Positions 2,765 to 14,940 of a stretch of DNA of 16,381 nucleotides are shown here, piece by piece; position 1 is the first letter of the stretch; each line of letters opens with the position of its first letter. The notes below the pieces were generated by a model, which saw only the letters and a list, made by a program, of their open reading frames with translations, did no database searches and was not told the DNA's origin. This DNA comes from Candidatus Muproteobacteria bacterium RIFCSPHIGHO2_01_FULL_65_16 (GTDB lineage Bacteria; Pseudomonadota; Gammaproteobacteria; Acidiferrobacterales; Sulfurifustaceae), in contig MFSY01000059.1 of assembly GCA_001785175.1 (NCBI GenBank), forward strand, positions 219 to 16,599. The letters run 5' to 3'. A program made the position numbers and the translations under genes.

Positions 2765-3487
2765 TCAGCCGACAGGCAGCGGGCCGCCGACGAAATATTC
2801 AACCGCCTTGCCGATGCCGTAACCGATGCCGGTGGCGGCCAGGGCGATGGCCAGGAATTCCAGGCCCGAGCGCCCCATGGACTGACCGGCGAGCCGGCCC
2901 TTGAACATGCCGACGCCGAAAAGCACCGCGCCCGTGAGCGCCGCCGCCACCAGCAGCGCCACATCCAGCGGCAACAACAGGAACGGCGCGAGCGGAATGG
3001 CGCCGCCGATGACGAAGGAAAGCGCCATCACCAGCGCCGCCTTGAGGGGGTTGTTGATGTCCGCGCCGCCCAGCCCCAGCACCTTTTCCTGAAACGTGGC
3101 CACGAACACGGACTTCTGCTGGTGCAGGAGCTTGACGATGCGATAGCCCGCCTCGCGGCTCAGCCCCTCGCGGTGCAGAAACTCGAGCAGACCCTCCTGC
3201 GCCAGGTACGGCTCCTGCTCGACGAACTCGGCTTCCTTTTTTAGCTCGTTGTCGAAAATCTCCTTTTCCGCCTTGGACGAGAGATAGGCGCCGGCCGACA
3301 TGGAGAAGGCCCCGGACAGGATCGAGGTCACGCCCGCCATCAGGATGATGAAGCGGTTCGCTCCCGCCGCCTGCATTCCGGCCAGCAGGCCGACGGTGGA
3401 GATGAGGCCGTCCTGGATGCCGAACACGAATTCGCGGATGCGGCCCTTGGCCTCGATTCTCCGGCGCTTCTCATCGGTGGGCAACAC
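2765..3487 (-). CDS. VIT1/CCC1-family Fe2+/Mn2+ transporter
   Basis: A 240-residue membrane protein of the VIT1/CCC1 (DUF125) family, which moves ferrous iron or manganese across membranes, usually in exchange for protons. The signature FGIQDGLISTVGLLAG is near residues 22-37. A Glu-rich cytoplasmic helix with several E residues (about 74-93) corresponds to the metal-binding domain of plant VIT1. About five membrane segments are visible, three of them in the C-terminal half. Start is GTG at 3485-3487, supported by AGGA at 3496-3499, 8 bases upstream. It follows the peroxiredoxin gene by 19 bases and is probably co-transcribed, which suggests a joint role in iron and oxidative stress control. 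Substrate choice (Fe versus Mn) cannot be decided from sequence. Confidence 0.93.
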   Translation of the reverse strand: MLPTDEKRRRIEAKGRIREFVFGIQDGLISTVGLLAGMQAAGANRFIILMAGVTSILSGAFSMSAGAYLSSKAEKEIFDNELKKEAEFVEQEPYLAQEGLLEFLHREGLSREAGYRIVKLLHQQKSVFVATFQEKVLGLGGADINNPLKAALVMALSFVIGGAIPLAPFLLLPLDVALLVAAALTGAVLFGVGMFKGRLAGQSMGRSGLEFLAIALAATGIGYGIGKAVEYFVGGPLPVG

Positions 3488-3506: not shown

Positions 3507-4016
3507 TCAGCCGGTGGGCTCGCCGGGCTTCCAGTCCGCGGGGCACATGCGTCCGGTGCGCAGCGCCTCCAGGACGCGCAGCGTCTCGTCCACGCCGCGG
3601 CCCACGTTCATGTTGGACGCGACGCTGTACTGGATGACGCCGCCGGGATCAATGATGAATGTCGCGCGGATCGCCACGCCCTCCTTCGGGTGCAGCACGT
3701 GATAGGCGCGGGCGACGGTTTTGCCGGTGTCGCTCAGGAGCGGATAGGCGATGCCGCCGAGCTCCTCGGCCCAGGCGCGGTGGCTCTCCACGGAATCCAC
3801 GCTCACGCCGTAAATCCCCGCGTCCTCGCGGCGGAAATCGGCGGCCTTCTTGCTGAAGCCGATGACCTCGGTCGGGCAGACGAAGGTGAAATCGGCCGGA
3901 TAGAAAAACAGCACGTGCCACTTGCCGCGCGCCTCGCGCAGCGAATAGTTGCGGATTCTTCCCTGGTGCACGCCCGGCAGCTCGAACTCGGGCGCGGGAT
4001 CGGCGATGGTCAGCAT
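3507..4016 (-). CDS. 2-Cys peroxiredoxin (AhpC/Prx1 type)
   Basis: A 169-residue thiol peroxidase that reduces hydrogen peroxide and organic peroxides. The peroxidatic C47 lies in P40-x3-T44-x2-C47 (FTFVCPTE), the resolving C158 in RMCPADWKPG, and the active-site Arg is R117. These place it in the typical 2-Cys AhpC/Prx1 subfamily. The length is slightly short of AhpC (about 187) because the C-terminus ends soon after the resolving cysteine. It begins 52 bases after the ctaB stop and ends 19 bases before the VIT1-family transporter, so it may be read from the oxidase operon or from its own promoter in that short GC-rich gap. No ahpF or dedicated reductase is in the window. Confidence 0.95.
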   Translation of the reverse strand: MLTIADPAPEFELPGVHQGRIRNYSLREARGKWHVLFFYPADFTFVCPTEVIGFSKKAADFRREDAGIYGVSVDSVESHRAWAEELGGIAYPLLSDTGKTVARAYHVLHPKEGVAIRATFIIDPGGVIQYSVASNMNVGRGVDETLRVLEALRTGRMCPADWKPGEPTG

Positions 4017-4068: not shown

Positions 4069-5037
4069 TCAGAACGTCACGGCGGGCAGCGCCTTGAGGA
4101 TATGCAGCCGGTAGTGGTCGGCCAGGAGCAGCGCGAACAGCAGCGTCAGATAATGGATCGAATAGCGGAAGGTCTTGCGCGCGAGCGCGTCGCTGTAGTC
4201 GCGGTACAAGCGCCAGGCGTAATACAGAAAACCGGCGTTCAGAACCAGCGCCCCCGCCAGATACGGCAAGCCGCTCATCCTGGTGGCGAACGGCATCAGC
4301 GTCACCGCCGCGAGCATGACGGTGTAGAGCAGGATCTGCAGCTGGGTGTACTCGCGCCCGTAGATCACCGGCAGCATCGGAATATTCACCTTGGCGTATT
4401 CCTGCGCGCGATAAAGGGCGAGCGCCCAGAAGTGCGGCGGCGTCCAGAGGAAAACGATCAGGAACAACAGCAGCGCGTCGGGCGCGACCTCGCCGGTGAT
4501 CGCGGTCCAGCCCAGGATCGGCGGCGCGGCGCCGGCGGCGCCGCCGATGACGATGTTCTGCGGCGTCGAGTGCTTGAGCCATACCGTGTAGATGAAGGAA
4601 TAACCGATGAGGGAAACAAACGTCAGGACCGCCGTGAGCCAGTTCACGCCCAGCGCCAGTATGGCCATGGAGAGCGCGCCCAGAACGGCCGCGAACACCG
4701 CGGCCGCGCGCGTGGTCAGATGGCCCGTGGGCAGCGGGCGGGCGCGCGTGCGCGCCATGACGGCGTCGGCCCGCTGATCGAGGATGTGGTTGACGGCGGC
4801 CGCGGACCCGGCGGCGAGGGCGATGCCGAGCGTTCCGAGGACCAGCGCCCCGAGCGGCGGTAGCCCCGGCGTCGCCAGAAACATGCCGACCACGGCGGTG
4901 AACACGATCAGCGCCACCACCCGCGGCTTCGTGAGCGCGAGATATTCGCGCGCCCGCAGCGCGAGGCGCGGGCGCGGCGTCGGGGCGTCAACAGCCGAAG
5001 CGGTCGGTTTCATGCGAACGGGCTCGATGCGGTTCAT
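4069..5037 (-). CDS. ctaB: Protoheme IX farnesyltransferase (heme O synthase)
   Basis: A 322-residue membrane prenyltransferase that adds a farnesyl group to heme B to give heme O, the precursor of heme A. The UbiA-type site N83-x3-D87-x3-D91 (NHILDQRADAV) is intact, followed by the family phrase TPQNIVIGGAAGA, and 7-9 membrane segments are apparent. The ATG at 5037 overlaps the ctaA stop (ATGA, 5034-5037), which favours this start over an in-frame ATG at 5013; the first about 25 residues are a non-conserved cytoplasmic tail. The same frame stays open far upstream to 6900, but that is GC-rich shadow across ctaA and coxC. It is the last cox gene of the cluster; no sco or surf1 follows. Confidence 0.96.
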   Translation of the reverse strand: MNRIEPVRMKPTASAVDAPTPRPRLALRAREYLALTKPRVVALIVFTAVVGMFLATPGLPPLGALVLGTLGIALAAGSAAAVNHILDQRADAVMARTRARPLPTGHLTTRAAAVFAAVLGALSMAILALGVNWLTAVLTFVSLIGYSFIYTVWLKHSTPQNIVIGGAAGAAPPILGWTAITGEVAPDALLLFLIVFLWTPPHFWALALYRAQEYAKVNIPMLPVIYGREYTQLQILLYTVMLAAVTLMPFATRMSGLPYLAGALVLNAGFLYYAWRLYRDYSDALARKTFRYSIHYLTLLFALLLADHYRLHILKALPAVTF

Positions 5038-6065
5038 ATCGTACGTTGCGGACGCGTCACATGATACAAGGTCACGAGGCTCATGAGCAGCAGCGCCGCC
5101 ACGGCGTTGTGCGCGACCGCGAGCGCGAGCGGCAGGTGGGTCACCGCCTCCATGACGCCGAGCGCGACCTCGGCCAGCAGCGGCACCAGCACCAGCAGCC
5201 CGTAGCGGCAGATCTTGTCCTCGCGGCCGACGCGCAGGAGGTGAAGCGCGAGCCAGCCCGTGTACAGCAGGACGGCGAGCGCGCCGATGCGGTGCGACAT
5301 GTGGACCGCGGTCGCCGCCGGCAGGTTCAGCGCCCGCCCTTCGTACTCCAGGCCGAGATCGCGCCACAGCATCAGGCCGTCGGTAAAGTCCATGGGCGGC
5401 CACCAGGCGCCCTGGCAGGTGGGGAAATCGGGGCACGCGAGGCCGGCGTAATTCACCATTGACCACCCGCCGAGGGTGATCTGGACCGCCGCCAGCAGCA
5501 GCGCGATCAGCACGCGCGGACGCAGCCGGCGCAGGAGCGGCGAGGCCGACGCCGGGCGCCAGAAGCGCTGCTCGCGCAGCGCGATCCACCACAAAAGCCC
5601 GAGGATGGCGAAGCCGCCGAGCAGCTGCGTCATCATGACCAGCGGCTTGAAGTGCAGCTCGATCGTCAACAGACCCGCGAGCGTCAGCCCGAACACCAGC
5701 AGCATGGTCAGGAGCGGGATCAGGACCTGCTGGCTGCGTTTGCGTTTCTTGAGCTGCCAGCCGAGCACCGTGAGGCGTATCAGTATCAGGCCCAGGGCGC
5801 CGGCGATGTAGCGCTGGGTCATGTCCTTCCACGCGCGCTTGTGGTCCGGCTTCTTCTCGCCCTCGAGCTGCCGCGCCTGGTCTATGTCCTGCGCCGTCTG
5901 CGGCGCGAACAGTTTGCCGTAGCAGCCGGGCCAGTCGGGACAGCCGAGCCCGGCCTCGGACAGGCGCGCGTAGGCGCCGAACACCACGGCGAGATAGGCG
6001 AAGAAGGCCGCGGACAGCGCCATGCGGAAGAACTTCGCGGACTTGCTCTTGCCGAGCATGCTCAT
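5034..6065 (-). CDS. ctaA: Heme A synthase CtaA/COX15, atypical N-terminal half
   Basis: A 343-residue, roughly 8-helix membrane protein of the CtaA/COX15 family, which oxidises heme O to heme A. Family motifs include RLSEAGLGCPDWPGC (34-48), a second loop NYAGLACPDFPTC, and the C-terminal heme-ligand histidines H258 (HMSHR) and H319 (VAHNAV). In the N-terminal half, the two positions that are normally His are Gln: Q84 in DMTQRYIAG (usually EMxHRxxAG) and Q147 in MMTQLLGG (usually xxxHLLGG); the catalytic Glu is D81. The gene is intact, 6 bases after coxC and overlapping ctaB. It may be an inactive or specialised heme A synthase. Family certain, activity doubtful. Confidence 0.93.
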   Translation of the reverse strand: MSMLGKSKSAKFFRMALSAAFFAYLAVVFGAYARLSEAGLGCPDWPGCYGKLFAPQTAQDIDQARQLEGEKKPDHKRAWKDMTQRYIAGALGLILIRLTVLGWQLKKRKRSQQVLIPLLTMLLVFGLTLAGLLTIELHFKPLVMMTQLLGGFAILGLLWWIALREQRFWRPASASPLLRRLRPRVLIALLLAAVQITLGGWSMVNYAGLACPDFPTCQGAWWPPMDFTDGLMLWRDLGLEYEGRALNLPAATAVHMSHRIGALAVLLYTGWLALHLLRVGREDKICRYGLLVLVPLLAEVALGVMEAVTHLPLALAVAHNAVAALLLMSLVTLYHVTRPQRTI

Positions 6066-6071
6066 CGGGCG

Positions 6072-6941
6072 CTACAGCCAGTAGACGAAGACAAACAGCA
6101 GCGCCCACGCGGCGCTTACGAACAGCCACTGCCACACGCCGGCCTCGAGGCCGAAGTGGCGGTCCGGGAGGAAATGGCCCTTGAGCGCGCGGCCGAGGAG
6201 CACGATCAACGCGCCGACGCCGGCGAGCGCGTAAACGGCGTGCAGGCCGGTCAGCACGAAGAATGTGGCGCCGTAGACCCCGGTCGCGGGGCGCAGGTTG
6301 AGCTCGGCATAGGCGCGCGCGTAGTCGTACACCTGCAATGCCAGGAAAACGGCGCCCAGGGCGATCGTGAGGAACAACCCGGTGATGAGCTGGGCGCGGT
6401 TGTCCCTGATCAATCCCCAATACGCCCAGACGACGGCGCCGGCCGAAATGAACAGGATCAGGGTGTTGATCGCGGGGATCCCCCAGGCGCCGATGGGCGA
6501 GAATTGGCCGGGCCCGGGGATGCTGTCCGGCGCCGCCGCCTCCGGCCCCCTCGGCCCGGCGGTCGGCCAGTCGGCGCTGAAGCCGCTCCAGAGATCGCCG
6601 CCGCCGAGCACCGGCAGCACTAATTGACGCAGATAAAAAAGCGCCCCGAGCAGCGCCGTGAAAAGCACGGCCTCGGCGAAAAGCAACCCGGCCATGCCCC
6701 AGCGGAACGAACGATCCACCACCTGGCTGTAGCCGCCGCGCTCGCCTTCCGCGATCACGCGTCCGAACCAGCGCGCGACCGTGAACGCAGTCACGGCGGC
6801 GCCGGCGAGAGCGAGCCACTTTCCGGGACCGACGCCGTTGACCGCGAGGCCCGCGCCGAGCGCCAGAACGAACAGGCCCGCGGCCGCGCCGAGCGGCCAC
6901 GGGCTCGTGTCGGGTGGAGAATAATGGTCGGCGGAAGCCAT
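6072..6941 (-). CDS. coxC: Cytochrome c oxidase subunit III, divergent
   Basis: A 289-residue, 7-helix membrane protein recognisable as CoxC/CtaE by WGIPAINTLIL, TELNLR-like AYAELNLR and the ALKGHF loop. Subunit III has no cofactor and supports proton uptake and stability of subunit I. The conserved helix-III Glu is present (E90). Other usual residues are gone: the C-terminal YWHFVDVVW motif reads QWLFVSAAW (271-279), losing the His and Asp; the usual HH after the second loop reads YW; and QVEEYxHAY reads QVYDYARAY. AAGG precedes the ATG by 4-5 bases. It lies 22 bases after coxA with no ctaG between them. A Pro/Gly-rich loop (about 112-150) is common in gammaproteobacterial homologues. Confidence 0.92.
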   Translation of the reverse strand: MASADHYSPPDTSPWPLGAAAGLFVLALGAGLAVNGVGPGKWLALAGAAVTAFTVARWFGRVIAEGERGGYSQVVDRSFRWGMAGLLFAEAVLFTALLGALFYLRQLVLPVLGGGDLWSGFSADWPTAGPRGPEAAAPDSIPGPGQFSPIGAWGIPAINTLILFISAGAVVWAYWGLIRDNRAQLITGLFLTIALGAVFLALQVYDYARAYAELNLRPATGVYGATFFVLTGLHAVYALAGVGALIVLLGRALKGHFLPDRHFGLEAGVWQWLFVSAAWALLFVFVYWL

Positions 6942-6963
6942 GTGCCTTCTCTGTCTCTTTAGA

Positions 6964-8529
6964 TCAGCGCAGTTTCGGCGGCGAGGTGAAGCTGTGGTAC
7001 GGCGGCGGCGAGCTCAGGGTCCACTCAAGCCCCTCCGCCCCCTCCCACACTCTGTCTTCGGCCCTGCGGCCGCCGCGGATGGTGCGCGCGACCATGACCA
7101 GAAACAGTATTTGCGCGAGCCCGAGGATGAACGCCCCGACCGTGGACAGCATGTTGAATTCGGCGAACGCCAGGGCGTAGTCCGGGATCCGGCGCGGCAT
7201 GCCGGCGAGCCCGAGAAAATGCTGCGGCAGGAACGCCAGGCCGAAGCCGAGCAGCGACAGCCAGAAGTGCCAGCGGCCGAGCCGCTCGTCATACATGCGG
7301 CCGGTCCACTTCGGCAGCCAATAGTAAACGCCGCCGAGGACGGCGAAGAGCGCGCCCGCGGCCAACATGGTGTGGAAATGCGCCACCACGAAATAGCTGT
7401 CGTGATACTGGATGTTCAGCGGCGCGAGCGCGAGCATGAGGCCGGACATGCCGCCGAGCGTGAACACGAGCACGAACGCGAGCGCGAACAGCATCGGCGT
7501 CTCGAAGCTCAGGCTGCCGCGCCAGATGGTCGCCACCCAGTTGAACACGACGACGCCCATCGGCACGGCGATCAGCATCGCGGTGAACATGAAGAACAGC
7601 CGGCCCGCGAGCGGCAGTCCGGCCACGTACATATGCGAGCCCCAGGAGATCAGGGCCAGCAGGGCGATCGCGACCGTGGCGTACATCATCGAGACCCGGC
7701 CGAACAGCGGCTTGCGCGCGAAGGTCGGAATGATCTGCGAGGCGATCCCGAACGCGGGCAGGATCAGGATATACGTCGCGGGATGACCGAAGAACCAGAA
7801 CAGGTGCTGCCACAGCCGCGGATCGCCGCCGCCCGCGGCGTCGAAGAACTGCGTCCCCAGGTGGCGATCGGCGAGCAGCAGCGCGCCCGCGCCCGCGAGC
7901 ACCGGCGTCACCGCGAGCAGCATGAGCGCCGTGACGAGCCAGGCCCAGGCGAAGAACGGCGCGCGCGTGAGCGCCATGCCCGGCGCGCGCAGATTGAGCA
8001 CGGTGGCGGCGACGTTCATCGCCCCGATCACCGCGGAGATGCTCACCAATTCCAGCGCGAGCACGGCGAAGTCCGTGCCGGCGCCGCCTTGCAGGACGAG
8101 CGGCGGGTACAGCGTCCAGCCCGTCGCGGGCGGACCGTTCGGTCCCGGGAGCAGCAGACCCGCGAGCAGCAGCACGAAGGCGAAGGGCAGGAGCCAGAAA
8201 CCCCAGGCGTTCAGGCGCGGCAGGGCCATGTCCGGCGCCCCGATCATCAGCGGGATCTGCCAGCTGGCGAGGCCGAGATAGGCCGGCACGACCACGCCGA
8301 AGATCATGATGAGCGCGTGCAGGCTCGCCAGCTGGTTGAAGAACAGCGGATCCAGCCACTGCGTCCCGGGCTGGAACAGCTCGGCGCGGATCACGAGCGC
8401 GAGCGCCCCGCCGACGAAAAACATGGCGCCGGCGAACCACAGATGGAGGCTGCCGACGTCCTTGTGGTTGACCGTGGACAGCCACCGGCCGACGCCGCCG
8501 GGGTGCGCGCTGGAGTGCTTCGTCGCCAT
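6964..8529 (-). CDS. coxA: Cytochrome c oxidase subunit I, lacking key CuB and proton-channel residues
   Basis: A 521-residue, 12-helix heme-copper oxidase subunit I, clearly related to the gammaproteobacterial aa3 CoxA. Present: low-spin heme ligands H71 and H386, high-spin heme ligand H384, CuB ligand H249, cross-link Tyr253, CuB ligand H299, Mg-site H376-D377, propionate Arg436-Arg437 and D100 of the D-channel. Changed: the second CuB His is Ser298 (WGSHM instead of WAHHM); the helix-VI Glu is Ala251 (GHPATY instead of GHPEVY); the K-channel Thr and Lys are Met324 and Val327 (PMGVVVFNW instead of PTGVKVFNW); a D-channel Asn is Ser89. GGGGAGGA lies about 8 bases before the ATG. One base separates it from coxB. 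Whether it still reduces oxygen is unknown. Confidence 0.95.
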   Translation of the reverse strand: MATKHSSAHPGGVGRWLSTVNHKDVGSLHLWFAGAMFFVGGALALVIRAELFQPGTQWLDPLFFNQLASLHALIMIFGVVVPAYLGLASWQIPLMIGAPDMALPRLNAWGFWLLPFAFVLLLAGLLLPGPNGPPATGWTLYPPLVLQGGAGTDFAVLALELVSISAVIGAMNVAATVLNLRAPGMALTRAPFFAWAWLVTALMLLAVTPVLAGAGALLLADRHLGTQFFDAAGGGDPRLWQHLFWFFGHPATYILILPAFGIASQIIPTFARKPLFGRVSMMYATVAIALLALISWGSHMYVAGLPLAGRLFFMFTAMLIAVPMGVVVFNWVATIWRGSLSFETPMLFALAFVLVFTLGGMSGLMLALAPLNIQYHDSYFVVAHFHTMLAAGALFAVLGGVYYWLPKWTGRMYDERLGRWHFWLSLLGFGLAFLPQHFLGLAGMPRRIPDYALAFAEFNMLSTVGAFILGLAQILFLVMVARTIRGGRRAEDRVWEGAEGLEWTLSSPPPYHSFTSPPKLR

Positions 8530-8530
8530 T

Positions 8531-9370
8531 TTATGGTCCTCCCCTGGATCCGGCGGTCGCGACCGGCGGCGCGACGGCGGGTTTGCTCTTACGCTGGCCG
8601 ACCCATTTGCCGAAGTCCTCCTGGCTCACGGCCTCGACCACGATCGGCATGTAGCCGTGGCCCAGGCCACAGAGCTCGGCGCACTGGCCGCGATAGGTGC
8701 CCGGCTCGTCAATCCGGACCCGGGTCTCGACGATGAAACCGGGGACGGCGTCCTGCTTGACGCCCAGCGCCGGCACCCACCAGGAGTGAATCACGTCGGC
8801 GGCGGTGAGCACGATGCGGATCTTCCGGTCCACGGGGAGGACGACGGCGTTGTCCACTTCCAGCAGATAATGCGCGCCCTTCGCGGCCTGGTTGTCGAGT
8901 TGCGCGCGCGGGGTGGCGAGGCTGCTGAAAAAACCGATGTCGTATTCGGGATACTCGTACTTCCACTTCCACTGGTAGGCGGTGATCTTTACGGTCATGT
9001 CGGGGCCGCCGGCGTCGCTCAGCTCGAGCAGCGTCATGGTGGACGGAACGGCCATGCCGATGACGATCACGAACGGAATCGCGGCCCAGGCGATCTCCAG
9101 CACGAGATTGTCGTGGAACCGCGCCGCCTTGTAGCCGCGGCCCTTGCGGTGCGCGATGACGGAATAAAGCACGACGCCGAACACGATCACGAATACGCCC
9201 AGGCACGCCAGCAGGATGAGATTATGCAGCTCCAGCAGCTTTTCGGCGGCGTCGGTGACGGGCCGCTGGAAGCCGAACCGGTAATCGGCGCGGACCAGGC
9301 CGGGAACGAGCCAGAGGCAGACGGCGATGACGGGAATTATCGCGCCTAGGAAACGTCTTGGGTGTGGCAT
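8531..9370 (-). CDS. coxB: Cytochrome c oxidase subunit II with intact CuA site
   Basis: A 279-residue membrane-anchored subunit that accepts electrons from cytochrome c. A signal-like segment (about 8-28) is followed by two membrane helices (about 47-72 and 90-112) and a periplasmic cupredoxin domain. All CuA ligands are visible: H195 (VIHSWW), C230, E232, C234 (QCAELC), H238 and M241 (HGYMPIVV). The helix-II Glu at the K-channel mouth is E92 (VLEIAW), and the aromatic electron-entry stretch QWKWKYEYP is present. The C-terminus has no fused cytochrome c domain. Start is ATG 9370; a TTG further upstream (9397) is less likely. A 276-base copy of its 5' end lies directly upstream. Confidence 0.96.
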   Translation of the reverse strand: MPHPRRFLGAIIPVIAVCLWLVPGLVRADYRFGFQRPVTDAAEKLLELHNLILLACLGVFVIVFGVVLYSVIAHRKGRGYKAARFHDNLVLEIAWAAIPFVIVIGMAVPSTMTLLELSDAGGPDMTVKITAYQWKWKYEYPEYDIGFFSSLATPRAQLDNQAAKGAHYLLEVDNAVVLPVDRKIRIVLTAADVIHSWWVPALGVKQDAVPGFIVETRVRIDEPGTYRGQCAELCGLGHGYMPIVVEAVSQEDFGKWVGQRKSKPAVAPPVATAGSRGGP

Positions 9371-9492
9371 GGATTTATTCTTCTGTCTCTGTTGCAAAAC
9401 GCGTGGCTACCCGTGCCCCGTTCTTATCGAGCCGCCCTTCGGGCGGCGTGTACTTGTGGGTGGCTGACCCACGGCAGGTGACTTTTCTTTGC
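9095..9492. repeat. 398-bp perfect tandem duplication, unit 1
   Basis: Bases 9095-9492 recur without any difference that I can see at 9493-9890, head to tail and with no spacer. The unit holds the first 92 codons of coxB plus 122 bases of upstream DNA. The outer edges share no obvious microhomology. It is either a very recent duplication or an assembly artefact. Confidence 0.92.
9424..9452 (+). repeat. TTATCGAGCCGCCC hairpin repeat, copy 1
   Basis: A 29-base word built round a 7-bp stem (GCCGCCC/GGGCGGC with a TTC loop at 9431-9447). Copies occur at 9822-9850 (the duplicated unit) and 16280-16308 (loop TGC), so it is a dispersed REP-like element and not specific to coxB. A second small hairpin, GTGGGT/ACCCAC, follows at 9456-9472. 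Confidence 0.8.
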
Positions 9493-9768
9493 CTCCAGCA
9501 CGAGATTGTCGTGGAACCGCGCCGCCTTGTAGCCGCGGCCCTTGCGGTGCGCGATGACGGAATAAAGCACGACGCCGAACACGATCACGAATACGCCCAG
9601 GCACGCCAGCAGGATGAGATTATGCAGCTCCAGCAGCTTTTCGGCGGCGTCGGTGACGGGCCGCTGGAAGCCGAACCGGTAATCGGCGCGGACCAGGCCG
9701 GGAACGAGCCAGAGGCAGACGGCGATGACGGGAATTATCGCGCCTAGGAAACGTCTTGGGTGTGGCAT
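9424..9768 (-). pseudogene. Truncated duplicate of coxB 5' end
   Basis: From the duplicated ATG at 9768, 92 codons are identical to coxB residues 1-92: signal segment, first helix and the start of the second helix, ending at Glu92. The frame then runs into hairpin repeat DNA for 22 codons and stops at TAA 9424-9426. It lacks the whole cupredoxin domain and every CuA ligand, so it cannot act as subunit II. If translated it would give a roughly 114-residue membrane peptide. It sits between the ancestral upstream region and the intact gene, so transcription of coxB from any promoter beyond 9890 would have to cross it. Confidence 0.85.
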
Positions 9769-9890
9769 GGATTTATTCTTCTGTCTCTGTTGCAAAACGC
9801 GTGGCTACCCGTGCCCCGTTCTTATCGAGCCGCCCTTCGGGCGGCGTGTACTTGTGGGTGGCTGACCCACGGCAGGTGACTTTTCTTTGC
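9493..9890. repeat. 398-bp perfect tandem duplication, unit 2
   Basis: This is the second copy of 9095-9492. It carries the truncated coxB start and continues at 9891 into the second arm of a 15-bp hairpin that unit 1 lacks, so unit 2 has the ancestral upstream flank and unit 1 is joined to the intact coxB gene. Confidence 0.92.
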
Positions 9891-12020: not shown

Positions 12021-12098
12021 CACCGCGGAGGCGCGGAGTTATTGAAACAAAAAACAGATATTTTCTCTGCGTTCTCTGCGTTCTCAGCGGTGAAAATC
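12021..12098. repeat. Inverted CTCTGCG-family repeats between bioH and bioC
   Basis: CACCGCGGAGGCGCGGAG at 12021-12038 is the reverse complement of the CTCTGCG/CGGTG word, and a direct copy at 12061-12098 ends AGCGGTGAAAATCGC. Together they form an inverted pair with about 22 bases between. This fills most of the 132-base gap between bioH and bioC, which are otherwise in one operon, and could fold in the mRNA. Confidence 0.78.
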
Positions 12099-12889: not shown

Positions 12890-14100
12890 GTCCGGCGGAC
12901 CTCTGCCAGCGCCGCCAGCAGGCGGTCCACATGCGCCTCTTCGTGCGCCGCCGAAAAGGTCACGCGCAGCCGCGCGCTCCCAACGGGCACGGTCGGCGGA
13001 CGGATGGCGGGCACGAGTACGCCGCGCGCGCGCAGTTTCCGGCTCGCCGCGAGCGCCGTTTCCGCGTCGCCCAGGATCAGCGGCTGGATCGGCGTTTCGC
13101 TCGGGCCCAACTCGAGCCCCAGCTCCCGCGCGCCGCGGCGGAAGCGCGCCACCAGCGCGCGCAGGCGCTCGCGCCGCCAGGATTCCGCGCGCGCTATTTT
13201 CAGGCTGGCGCGCGTCGCCTCGGCGACCGCCGGCGGAAGCGCGGTCGTATAAATATAGGTGCGCGCGAACTGGATCAGGGACTCGATCAGGTCGTCCGCG
13301 CCGGCGACAAAGGCGCCGAAGGTGCCGAAGGCCTTGCCCAGCGTCCCCACGAGGATGGCCGGCGGCTCCAGGCGGATGCCGGCGTGCTCGAACGAACCGC
13401 GGCCGGTCGCGCCCAAAACGCCGAGGCCGTGGGCGTCGTCCGCGAGCAGGCGCGCGCCGTACCGGCGCGCCAGCTCCATCAGGGCCGCGAGCGGCGCGAT
13501 GTCACCGTCCATGCTGAACACGGCATCCGTCGTGATCAAACTGGCGGATTGATGAGAGAGTCCTTTATCCCCCTCTCCCGCCGGGAGCGGGCGGGGGTGA
13601 GGGGATTTTTTCCGCGCTTGAGCGAGTTTCGTGGCCAGCCACGCCGCGTCGGCGTGCGGATAGCGAAGCACCCGCGCGCGCGCCAGGCGCGCGGCGTCAA
13701 TCAGCGAGGCGTGGTTGAGCTTGTCTTCGAAGACGGCCGTGTCTCGCCCCGCGAGCGCCGTCACCACGCCGAGATTGGCCATGTAGCCGGTGGAAAATAA
13801 AAGCGCCCGCGGCGCGCCGACAAATTCGGCCAGCTCCTCCTCCAGCAGATGGTGGGCGCGGCCGTGGCCGCTGACGAGGTGCGAGGCGCCGGCGCCCACG
13901 CCGTAGCGCTCCGCGCCGTCCTTGAACGCGGCGACGACGCGCGGGTGATTCGCCAGTCCGAGATAATCGTTACTGCAGAATGAAAGCAGCGTCTCGTCCC
14001 CGACGCGCACCTCCGCGCCCTGCGGGGAAGACAGGACCAGCCGCTCGCGGTAAAGCCCCGCGGCGCGCCGCTGGTCAAGCAGGCCCTCCGGCGGCTTCAC
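12886..14100 (-). CDS. bioF: 8-Amino-7-oxononanoate synthase with in-frame repeat insertion
   Basis: A PLP enzyme that condenses pimeloyl-ACP with L-alanine to give KAPA. From GTG 14100 it has 404 residues against 384 in E. coli. Motifs: SNDYLGL (43-49), LNHASL with H130, FSMDGD (195-200), DDAHGLG with D221/D222 and H224, PLP-lysine K256 in GTLGKAFG, and IRPPTVP near the end. Extra sequence at about 163-183 contains [12 protein letters not shown], the translation of a well-known dispersed GC-rich hairpin repeat. It sits between the strand preceding FSMDGD and the previous helix, a surface-loop position in the E. coli alignment, so activity could survive. The frame is open to 14223, but upstream codons look non-conserved, and GTG 14100 has GGGG about 7 bases ahead. 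Confidence 0.93.
13570..13605. repeat. [12 protein letters not shown] hairpin repeat inserted in bioF
   Basis: A GC-rich imperfect inverted repeat whose arms are CCCCTCTCCCGC and GCGGGGGTGAGGGG, separated by CGGGAGCGG. Read on the minus strand in the bioF frame it gives [12 protein letters not shown], a peptide string familiar from mis-annotated intergenic repeats in many proteobacteria. Its length keeps the bioF frame. Confidence 0.85.
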
Positions 14101-14192
14101 GGAAGCCCCAGCCTGGCGCTGTACACGGTGATGATGGGCATGATAATAAAATGGACTGCGCGGGCGGCTCGACTTGATGCGGCGAAACCGGC

Positions 14193-14220
14193 AGTTTAGC
14201 CCCTGGCCGGCGGCAGTCAA
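14193..14220 (-). promoter_or_regulatory. Putative bioF sigma70 promoter
   Basis: On the minus strand, -35 TTGACT (14215-14220) and -10 TAAACT (14193-14198) are separated by 16 bases, 5/6 and 4/6 consensus matches. Transcription would start near 14186 and give a leader of about 86 bases before bioF. The -35 overlaps the putative BirA operator. Confidence 0.5.
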
Positions 14221-14246
14221 CATGGATGATACGGGATGGTTTACAA
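14214..14246. promoter_or_regulatory. Putative BirA biotin operator
   Basis: The right half-site GGTTTACAA (14238-14246) matches the proteobacterial BirA half-site exactly. At the expected 15-base spacing lies a weak left half, CAGTCAACA (14214-14222, 5/9 matches to TTGTAAACC). It overlaps the -35 of the putative bioF promoter and the comF start codon, a position suited to biotin-dependent repression of the bio operon. The weak left half keeps this tentative. Confidence 0.5.
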
Positions 14247-14940
14247 CAGGCTAAAGGTTCTACAGGACTGGTTTCTCCCCGGAAGCTGCCTGCTGTGCGC
14301 CGCACCGGTGGGATTCGGCGCGGATTTTTGCCGTGACTGCGAGGCGTCGCTGCCACGGCCCGGCTCCACATGCCGGATATGCGCCGCGCCCCTCGAAGGG
14401 GCGGAGGATACCGACGCGCCCTGCGGCGAGTGCCAGAAACGCCCGCCGAAGTTCGCCCGGGTGCGGACGCTGTTTACCTACGCCCCACCGGTGGATCGCC
14501 TGATACAAAACCTGAAATACCACCGCCGGCTTGAACTTGCGCGCGTTCTGGGCGATCGGCTCGCCGGCTGTCTCGCGTCCCTGAACGAGCCGCGACCGGA
14601 CGTCATTGTGCCGGTGCCGCTGCACCGCTCGCGCCTGCGGGAGCGCGGCTACAATCAGTCGCTCGAGCTCGCCCGGCCCATCGCCCGCCGCCTGCGCCTG
14701 CCGCTCGATTACCGGAGCGTGCGCCGCACCCGCGCCACCGCGCCGCAGACCGAGCTGCCGCGCGAACAGCGGCGGAAAAACGTCCGCGGCGCCTTTCAGG
14801 CGGATAACGTGTTCGAGGGACGACGCGTCGCCGTGGTGGACGACGTCATGACCAGCGGGCATACCGCCGCCGCCCTGGCAGAGTGTCTGCGCAGGGCGGG
14901 GGCGAAGGAAATTCTAGTGTGGGTGGTGGCGCGGGCCTGA
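14236..14940 (+). CDS. comF: ComF/GntX-family phosphoribosyltransferase-like protein
   Basis: A 234-residue member of the ComF family, linked to use of imported DNA in transformation and, as GntX/YhgH, adjacent to bioH in E. coli. An N-terminal zinc-ribbon region has paired cysteines (C18/C21, C32/C35, C46/C49, C63/C66), then a PRTase fold with the PRPP-binding loop [13 protein letters not shown] (198-210) and the conserved RGYNQ motif (127-131). It is divergent from bioF with a 135-base gap. The ATG at 14236 has only a weak ribosome site and lies within the putative BirA operator, so a biotin effect on comF is possible but unproven. It converges on a 65-codon gene 13 bases downstream. Confidence 0.93.

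Follow-up and report, generated by a model that had tools for sequence, protein, structure and literature searches.

A putative aa3-derived complex without an intact CuB site in two genera of one gammaproteobacterial family

Can an oxidase subunit that has lost a ligand of its copper centre and residues of both of its proton channels still belong to a complex that the cell maintains? The question is raised by a subunit I gene (coxA) in a stretch of 16,381 nucleotides (the window) on contig 59 of a 1.7 Mb genome of Candidatus Muproteobacteria that is 79% complete (G000). The textbook core of an A1-type oxidase includes the ligands of CuB, the Glu of the D-channel and the Lys of the K-channel. 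An earlier note, made from the letters alone, proposed that an otherwise ordinary CoxA had lost one residue of each kind and that it forms, beside an intact subunit II, a maintained heme-copper complex in which CuB and proton pumping are altered or absent, such as a non-pumping oxidase, an NO-handling enzyme or a sensor. Heme-copper oxidases are defined in PMC6431628 by a binuclear centre with CuB, and all members except the NO reductases (NORs) are said there to require copper.

The gene lies in a minus-strand cluster, coxB-coxA-coxC-cox15-ctaB-peroxiredoxin-VIT1, with intergenic gaps of at most 52 bases. coxA (6964..8529) is an open frame of 521 amino acids, intact as the earlier note had described it, without the equivalents of H333, E286 and K362 (R. 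sphaeroides numbering). Its product matches PF00115 at 476 bits and falls just below the cut-off of NCBIfam CtaD_CoxA (644.5 versus 670.75), as does a second CoxA of the same genome on contig C89. Upstream is coxB for subunit II (8531..9397; PF00116, PF02790), listed with a TTG start and with a possible downstream ATG; a 398-base tandem duplication, real or an assembly artefact, covers its 5' end (window about 9096-9890; 300 bases matched at 100%). Downstream, after a gap of 22 bases without cox11 (6942..6963), follow coxC for subunit III (6072..6941; PF00510), cox15/ctaA for heme A synthase (5034..6065; PF02628) and ctaB for heme O synthase (4069..5037; PF01040). A peroxiredoxin gene of the AhpC/TSA type (3507..4016; PF00578) begins 52 bases after ctaB on the same strand and is followed by a gene for a VIT1-family transporter (2765..3487; PF01988).

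Residue equivalences were counted by hand in a phmmer alignment to R. sphaeroides 1m56 chain A, in which window residues 89, 251, 298, 324 and 327 correspond to N121, E286, H333, T359 and K362. The window protein carries N121S, E286A, H333S, T359M and K362V, and reads GHPATY, WGSHM and VPMGVVVFNW where most relatives read GHPEVY, WAHHM and VPTGVKVFNW. In HPATY (7771..7785, minus strand, as are the other sites) the CuB ligand His249 and Tyr253 are kept and Glu251 is replaced by Ala (codon 7779-7777). Of the CuB His pair in WGSHM (Ser298-His299, 7633..7638), only the second member is left. The K-channel Thr and Lys are both lost in M324-G-V-V327 (7549..7560; M324 codon 7560-7558, V327 codon 7551-7549), and Ser89 (8263..8265) takes the place of the D-channel Asn121. 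Translation and alignment bear out the four replacements named in the earlier note (Ser298, Ala251, Val327 and Ser89), its residues and coordinates being right, and add T359M. The heme ligands, the cross-link Tyr and the Mg site are all present, as it had stated: heme a H71 and H386, heme a3 H384, Y253 and H376/D377, together with H249, H299 and R446/R447. Changes at columns conserved at >=97% also include D372N and Y387T.

How unusual these losses are can be seen from 126 distinct full-length CoxA proteins (>=50% identity, window included) that were chosen by likeness to the window; their named part comprises the 80 best among at least 595 stretches that matched. H333, E286, N121, S201 and Y422 are kept in 124 of the 126 listed proteins; the two exceptions are the window and a copy on contig 19 of G001, a 75% complete assembly that represents a different genus within the family. 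All 126 retain the heme ligands, Y288 and H334, and 125 retain H284. The K362 position is more permissive, with Lys in 117 proteins, Leu in seven and Val in two (window and G001), and its loss alone was rejected as a mark of lost function since the seven with Leu retain an intact CuB site and E286. S142G is uninformative (Gly in 10/126). No homologue with the standard residues was found at more than 95% identity, the level at which a sequencing error would be indicated; among the matches listed, the nearest relatives are 69% identical to the window CoxA and the G001 copy 67%.

The search for homologues with the same signature, proposed in the earlier note, leads to the G001 copy, which shares the replacements: H333 is Ser, K362 is Val and the D-channel Glu286 is absent (window FFGHPATY, G001 FFGNSAEY). 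At H284 the G001 copy has Asn, which leaves it a single CuB His; its Tyr288 is kept. The His284-Tyr288 cross-link pair therefore has both residues in the window and has lost its His in G001. Among the CoxA matches at >=50% identity in 57 genomes of the order, the signature occurs in G000 and G001 only. In a sample of the class (369 genomes), a search at E <= 1e-236 returned just the window and one standard copy, a threshold that would miss a copy as distant as that of G001, and the pattern W[AG]-[S/T/C/R]-HM ... F[NS]W was found in one of the 369 genomes, the window's own, G001 being outside the sample.

The two copies appear to descend from one altered ancestor. Of 193 positions that the other relatives conserve at >=97%, both copies have changed at 22, the window alone at seven and G001 alone at 21. 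In the CoxA tree the window and G001 form one clade (100/99) beside the standard CoxA of the order, and this placement in a subunit I phylogeny, another suggestion of the earlier note, nests them inside the A1 CoxA; by sequence and tree position the protein is a member of the A family. The pair still groups when 37 shared-derived columns are removed (SH-aLRT 86) and is also joined in the coxC (98) and coxB (96) trees. The CoxA stem is 0.39 long and the tips 0.43 and 0.90 versus a median tip of 0.11, branch lengths which show that constraint was relaxed. For the control genes bioC+bioD+ctaB+cox15 the pair groups weakly (52) with tips of 0.27 each versus a median of 0.34; because these tips are ordinary, the acceleration belongs to the oxidase subunits.

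The subunits are unequally affected. Changes at columns conserved at >=97% number 28/186 in the window and 40/186 in G001 for coxA, 19/70 and 20/70 for coxC, 5/53 in each for coxB, 2/64 in each for ctaB, and 0/35 and 1/35 for cox15. The CuA motif of subunit II is intact in both variants (alignment with seven relatives), and both proteins stop before the C-terminal cytochrome c domain of the relatives, so the intact subunit II of the earlier note holds for the CuA ligands and fails for that domain.

The gene content around coxA is also altered. Cox11 is described as the CuB factor in the available parts of PMC6696091 and PMC9145763. cox11 lies within 1 kb after coxA at 97 of 104 standard loci (those with at least 1.5 kb of downstream sequence) versus neither of the two variant loci. 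The seven standard loci without it are L056, L097, L125, L131, L132, L168 and L170; they include the full-length CoxA copy of G038, and coxC directly follows coxA in four of them. Since such loci exist, the loss of cox11 fits the loss of CuB but does not prove it. At two of the seven, L131 and L132, a standard coxA (65% identity) stands alone, 16-18 kb of sequence giving no match to coxB, coxC or cox11. PF04442 (cox11) is found as a single copy in each of 11 of 12 genomes; G000 has it only beside the C89 oxidase, and none was found in G001 (75% complete). The peroxiredoxin and VIT1 genes stand within 6 kb downstream at both variant loci versus none of 82 standard loci, and among 14 genomes a peroxiredoxin 75% identical to that of the window occurs in G001 only (the other 12 have at best 44%, one having no match). 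SURF1 is near the G001 copy and not near the window copy; it lies within 6 kb at 72 of the 84 loci with at least 5.5 kb of downstream sequence. The sole SCO copy found in G000 is on C13.

The variant gene can be compared with several known systems. The A1-type aa3/caa3 operons of the order (G017:C18, G006:C48) have the same gene order (bio genes-coxB-coxA-coxC-cox15-ctaB), and the window and G001 copies occupy the same site beside the same biotin genes, as positional orthologues. Their CoxA proteins are 68-69% identical to that of the window and share the CuA and heme ligands and the Tyr, but they have three CuB His, E286, K362, cox11 and a cytochrome c domain in subunit II. The C89-type CoxA, found in G000 and six other genomes, likewise has no K-channel Lys but keeps the three CuB His and E286. 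A2-type enzymes have no E286 and carry a Tyr-Ser motif instead; such compensation was considered and rejected for the variant, in which no Tyr-Ser motif was seen. With these precedents, neither the loss of E286 alone nor that of K362 alone would suffice to argue for a change of function. Where a CuB ligand is lost together with the key residues of the two proton channels, O2 reduction coupled to pumping becomes very unlikely.

In excerpts of PMC6696091 and PMC9145763, R. sphaeroides aa3 made without Cox11 or Surf1 yields aa3 protein lacking CuB, and without Surf1 10-15% of the enzyme holds heme a3 but no CuB. Those mutants represent a laboratory defect with ligands and channels intact, whereas the variant is a natural lineage. 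No published description of a naturally CuB-less A-family oxidase was recognised in a literature search made mostly at the level of abstracts, with subscription literature largely outside it.

The locus probably encodes a maintained three-subunit A-family complex that arose from an ordinary aa3/caa3 oxidase, lost its CuB centre and both proton-uptake channels and is not a normal O2-reducing pump. The residue losses and shared derived residues, their occurrence in a second genus, the intact CuA and heme ligands, the intact heme A genes, the open frames and the purifying selection are all properties of the sequences themselves, and to this extent they support the interpretation of the earlier note, a maintained complex whose CuB and pumping are altered or absent; of the functions it had offered, one is unsupported and another unlikely, as discussed below. 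In this family electrons pass from cytochrome c to CuA, heme a and the heme a3-CuB site (PMC9145763, in the part available). In the variant the route would be the same as far as heme a and would end at a mononuclear heme a3 with no copper next to it, and no protons would be drawn from the cytoplasm. Without CuB copper and cytoplasmic protons the complex should be unable to reduce O2 to water or to pump as aa3 does.

What the complex might do instead is a matter of graded guesses. The chances seem about even that a naturally CuB-less aa3 lineage, present in at least two genera, has been recruited, either as an enzyme with a mononuclear heme a3 (a cytochrome c-driven peroxide reductase, for instance) or as a sensor. 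With distal His299 and Tyr253 still in place, heme a3 could reduce a small oxidant with electrons from cytochrome c. Hydrogen peroxide is the most likely such oxidant, although this particular reaction is a guess and by itself rather doubtful; it is suggested by the retention of His299 and Tyr253 and by the peroxiredoxin gene in the operon of both genera. Excerpts of PMC9604133 report that known aa3 forms ferryl states with H2O2. Counting against a heme a3 enzyme, deletion of Cox11 leads to accumulation of apo-COX I (PMC6696091, in part), which suggests that heme a3 might be absent here too. If the recruitment is true, the lineage offers a natural experiment on heme a3 without copper and a case of a proton pump turning into something else. 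The annotation 'cytochrome c oxidase' alone does not prove aerobic respiration.

Of the other explanations, a sensor, electron-transfer or structural complex without catalysis at heme a3, such as a gas-binding regulator or an electron carrier in a supercomplex, is unlikely but fits the retention of electron entry together with the loss of catalysis and proton paths. A response regulator gene, joined in the window by a histidine kinase gene, lies in the wider neighbourhood, but these genes are set apart from the operon by other genes and no signalling domain is fused to the complex or encoded in the operon. Such a complex also overlaps with the recruited enzyme, differing only in the last step.

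The main rival is a slowly decaying remnant: the oxidase would have lost its function after becoming redundant in the common ancestor of both genera, and would persist under weak constraint with no new role. It is viewed as unlikely, and the best evidence for it is the long branches. The coxA, coxB and coxC branches are accelerated, G001 deviates at 40 of 186 conserved coxA columns, most of the shared changes take away polar residues, G000 has another A-family oxidase (C89), and SURF1 and SCO are absent at the window locus. Against this, the CuA and heme ligands are kept, the peroxiredoxin and VIT1 genes are in both operons, and the variant is the only PF00115 protein found in G001 (75% complete), where the heme A genes are intact. 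The frames are also open in both lineages. In a simple neutral simulation of one lineage at 0.325 substitutions per site (half the dS of coxA), the chance of finding no stop was 0.001 for coxA, 0.018 for coxB and 0.025 for coxC. Between the window and G001, dN/dS is 0.40 for coxA (bootstrap 0.32-0.49), 0.33 for coxB and 0.39 for coxC. The neighbours range from 0.18 to 0.40 (bioD 0.40, peroxiredoxin 0.36, cox15 and ctaB 0.31 each, bioC 0.29, the response regulator 0.26 and VIT1 0.18), so that coxA stands at the top of their range. Standard coxA pairs give 0.05-0.10, at higher and more saturated dS, a rough comparison which suggests that the variant is less constrained than coxA in standard lineages. 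An old pseudogene was rejected on the open frames in both lineages and the dN/dS, which leaves decay that is slow or recent as the rival; these together with the shared replacements argue equally against an error. In our reading, constraint was relaxed for a time and selection then acted on the altered complex.

That the complex is still an O2 reductase, in which the ligands that are left bind copper and a different chaperone inserts it, is very unlikely. The window keeps two CuB His and Tyr253, G000 has cox11 elsewhere, and the seven standard loci without adjacent cox11 are precedents for its absence from the operon; but G001 has one CuB His only, two being missing there and one in the window, and both proton channels are altered in both copies. 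The working non-pumping O2 reductase suggested in the earlier note is unlikely on the same CuB losses.

An NO reductase derived from the A family is also highly improbable, and the NO-handling enzyme of the earlier note finds no support. NORs arose within the heme-copper superfamily and have no CuB. The genome has genes related to nitrogen oxides, among them an eNOR-like operon on C13. Its subunit I reads GHSSQQI (L003; L130 2975-5241), a small CoxB-like subunit II is encoded upstream, and aligned homologues in two other genomes have Gln at the Tyr position, which is the mark of eNOR in the accessible portion of PMC8756737. That such an operon is already present counts against this reading. 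According to the same portion, including Table A4, E, N, Q or D takes the place of the active-site Tyr in the known NOR subfamilies, which count cNOR and qNOR beside sNOR, eNOR and gNOR. The last three resemble the variant in belonging to the superfamily, in having an altered active site and in their cupredoxin subunit II. They replace the Tyr, however, whereas both variant copies keep it (Tyr253 in the window), lose CuB His and nest in the A1 CoxA, and no extra acidic ligand is seen at the CuB place.

A sequencing or assembly error can practically be dismissed: the genome is an incomplete draft with the tandem duplication at the 5' end of coxB, but a second genus shares the replacements and the changes are in frame at many sites.

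The remaining oxidases of the two genomes give the setting of the variant. Four PF00115 proteins were found in G000, namely the C89 CoxA, the window copy and two divergent ones encoded on C13, and neither G000 nor G001 yielded a cytochrome bd subunit I. In seven genomes of the order, the C89-type subfamily (L129, which is G000:C89, and L167-L172) combines K362L with an intact Glu286 and all three CuB His, and cox11 follows coxA at five of its seven loci (all but L168 and L170). On C13, dsrA and dsrB score above their NCBIfam cut-offs. Upstream of them, L130 10000-11412 encodes a divergent COX1-family protein of 470 amino acids (PF00115 39.9 bits, no NCBIfam match) that contains GGGHVMQ and has no WxHH motif.

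Several minor features were seen along the way. Adapter contamination was considered for the unusual start, 'MCIRDS', of the ORF at 451-2109 and rejected, as the pattern is absent with up to two mismatches. In other genomes, L179 (G003:C1, about 993596) is a divergent CoxA (42% identity) in a frame of 1184 amino acids, in which Gln replaces the K-channel Lys and Val replaces Asn121, and at L173 (G041:C79, about 13118-14615) coxA is split across two frames by a frameshift or an error. In the window, short-repeat-like runs occupy intergenic sequence at about 2100-2180 and 12030-12090, one being an inverted repeat of the ctgtgtttatccg type and the other a repeated ctctgcgttc.
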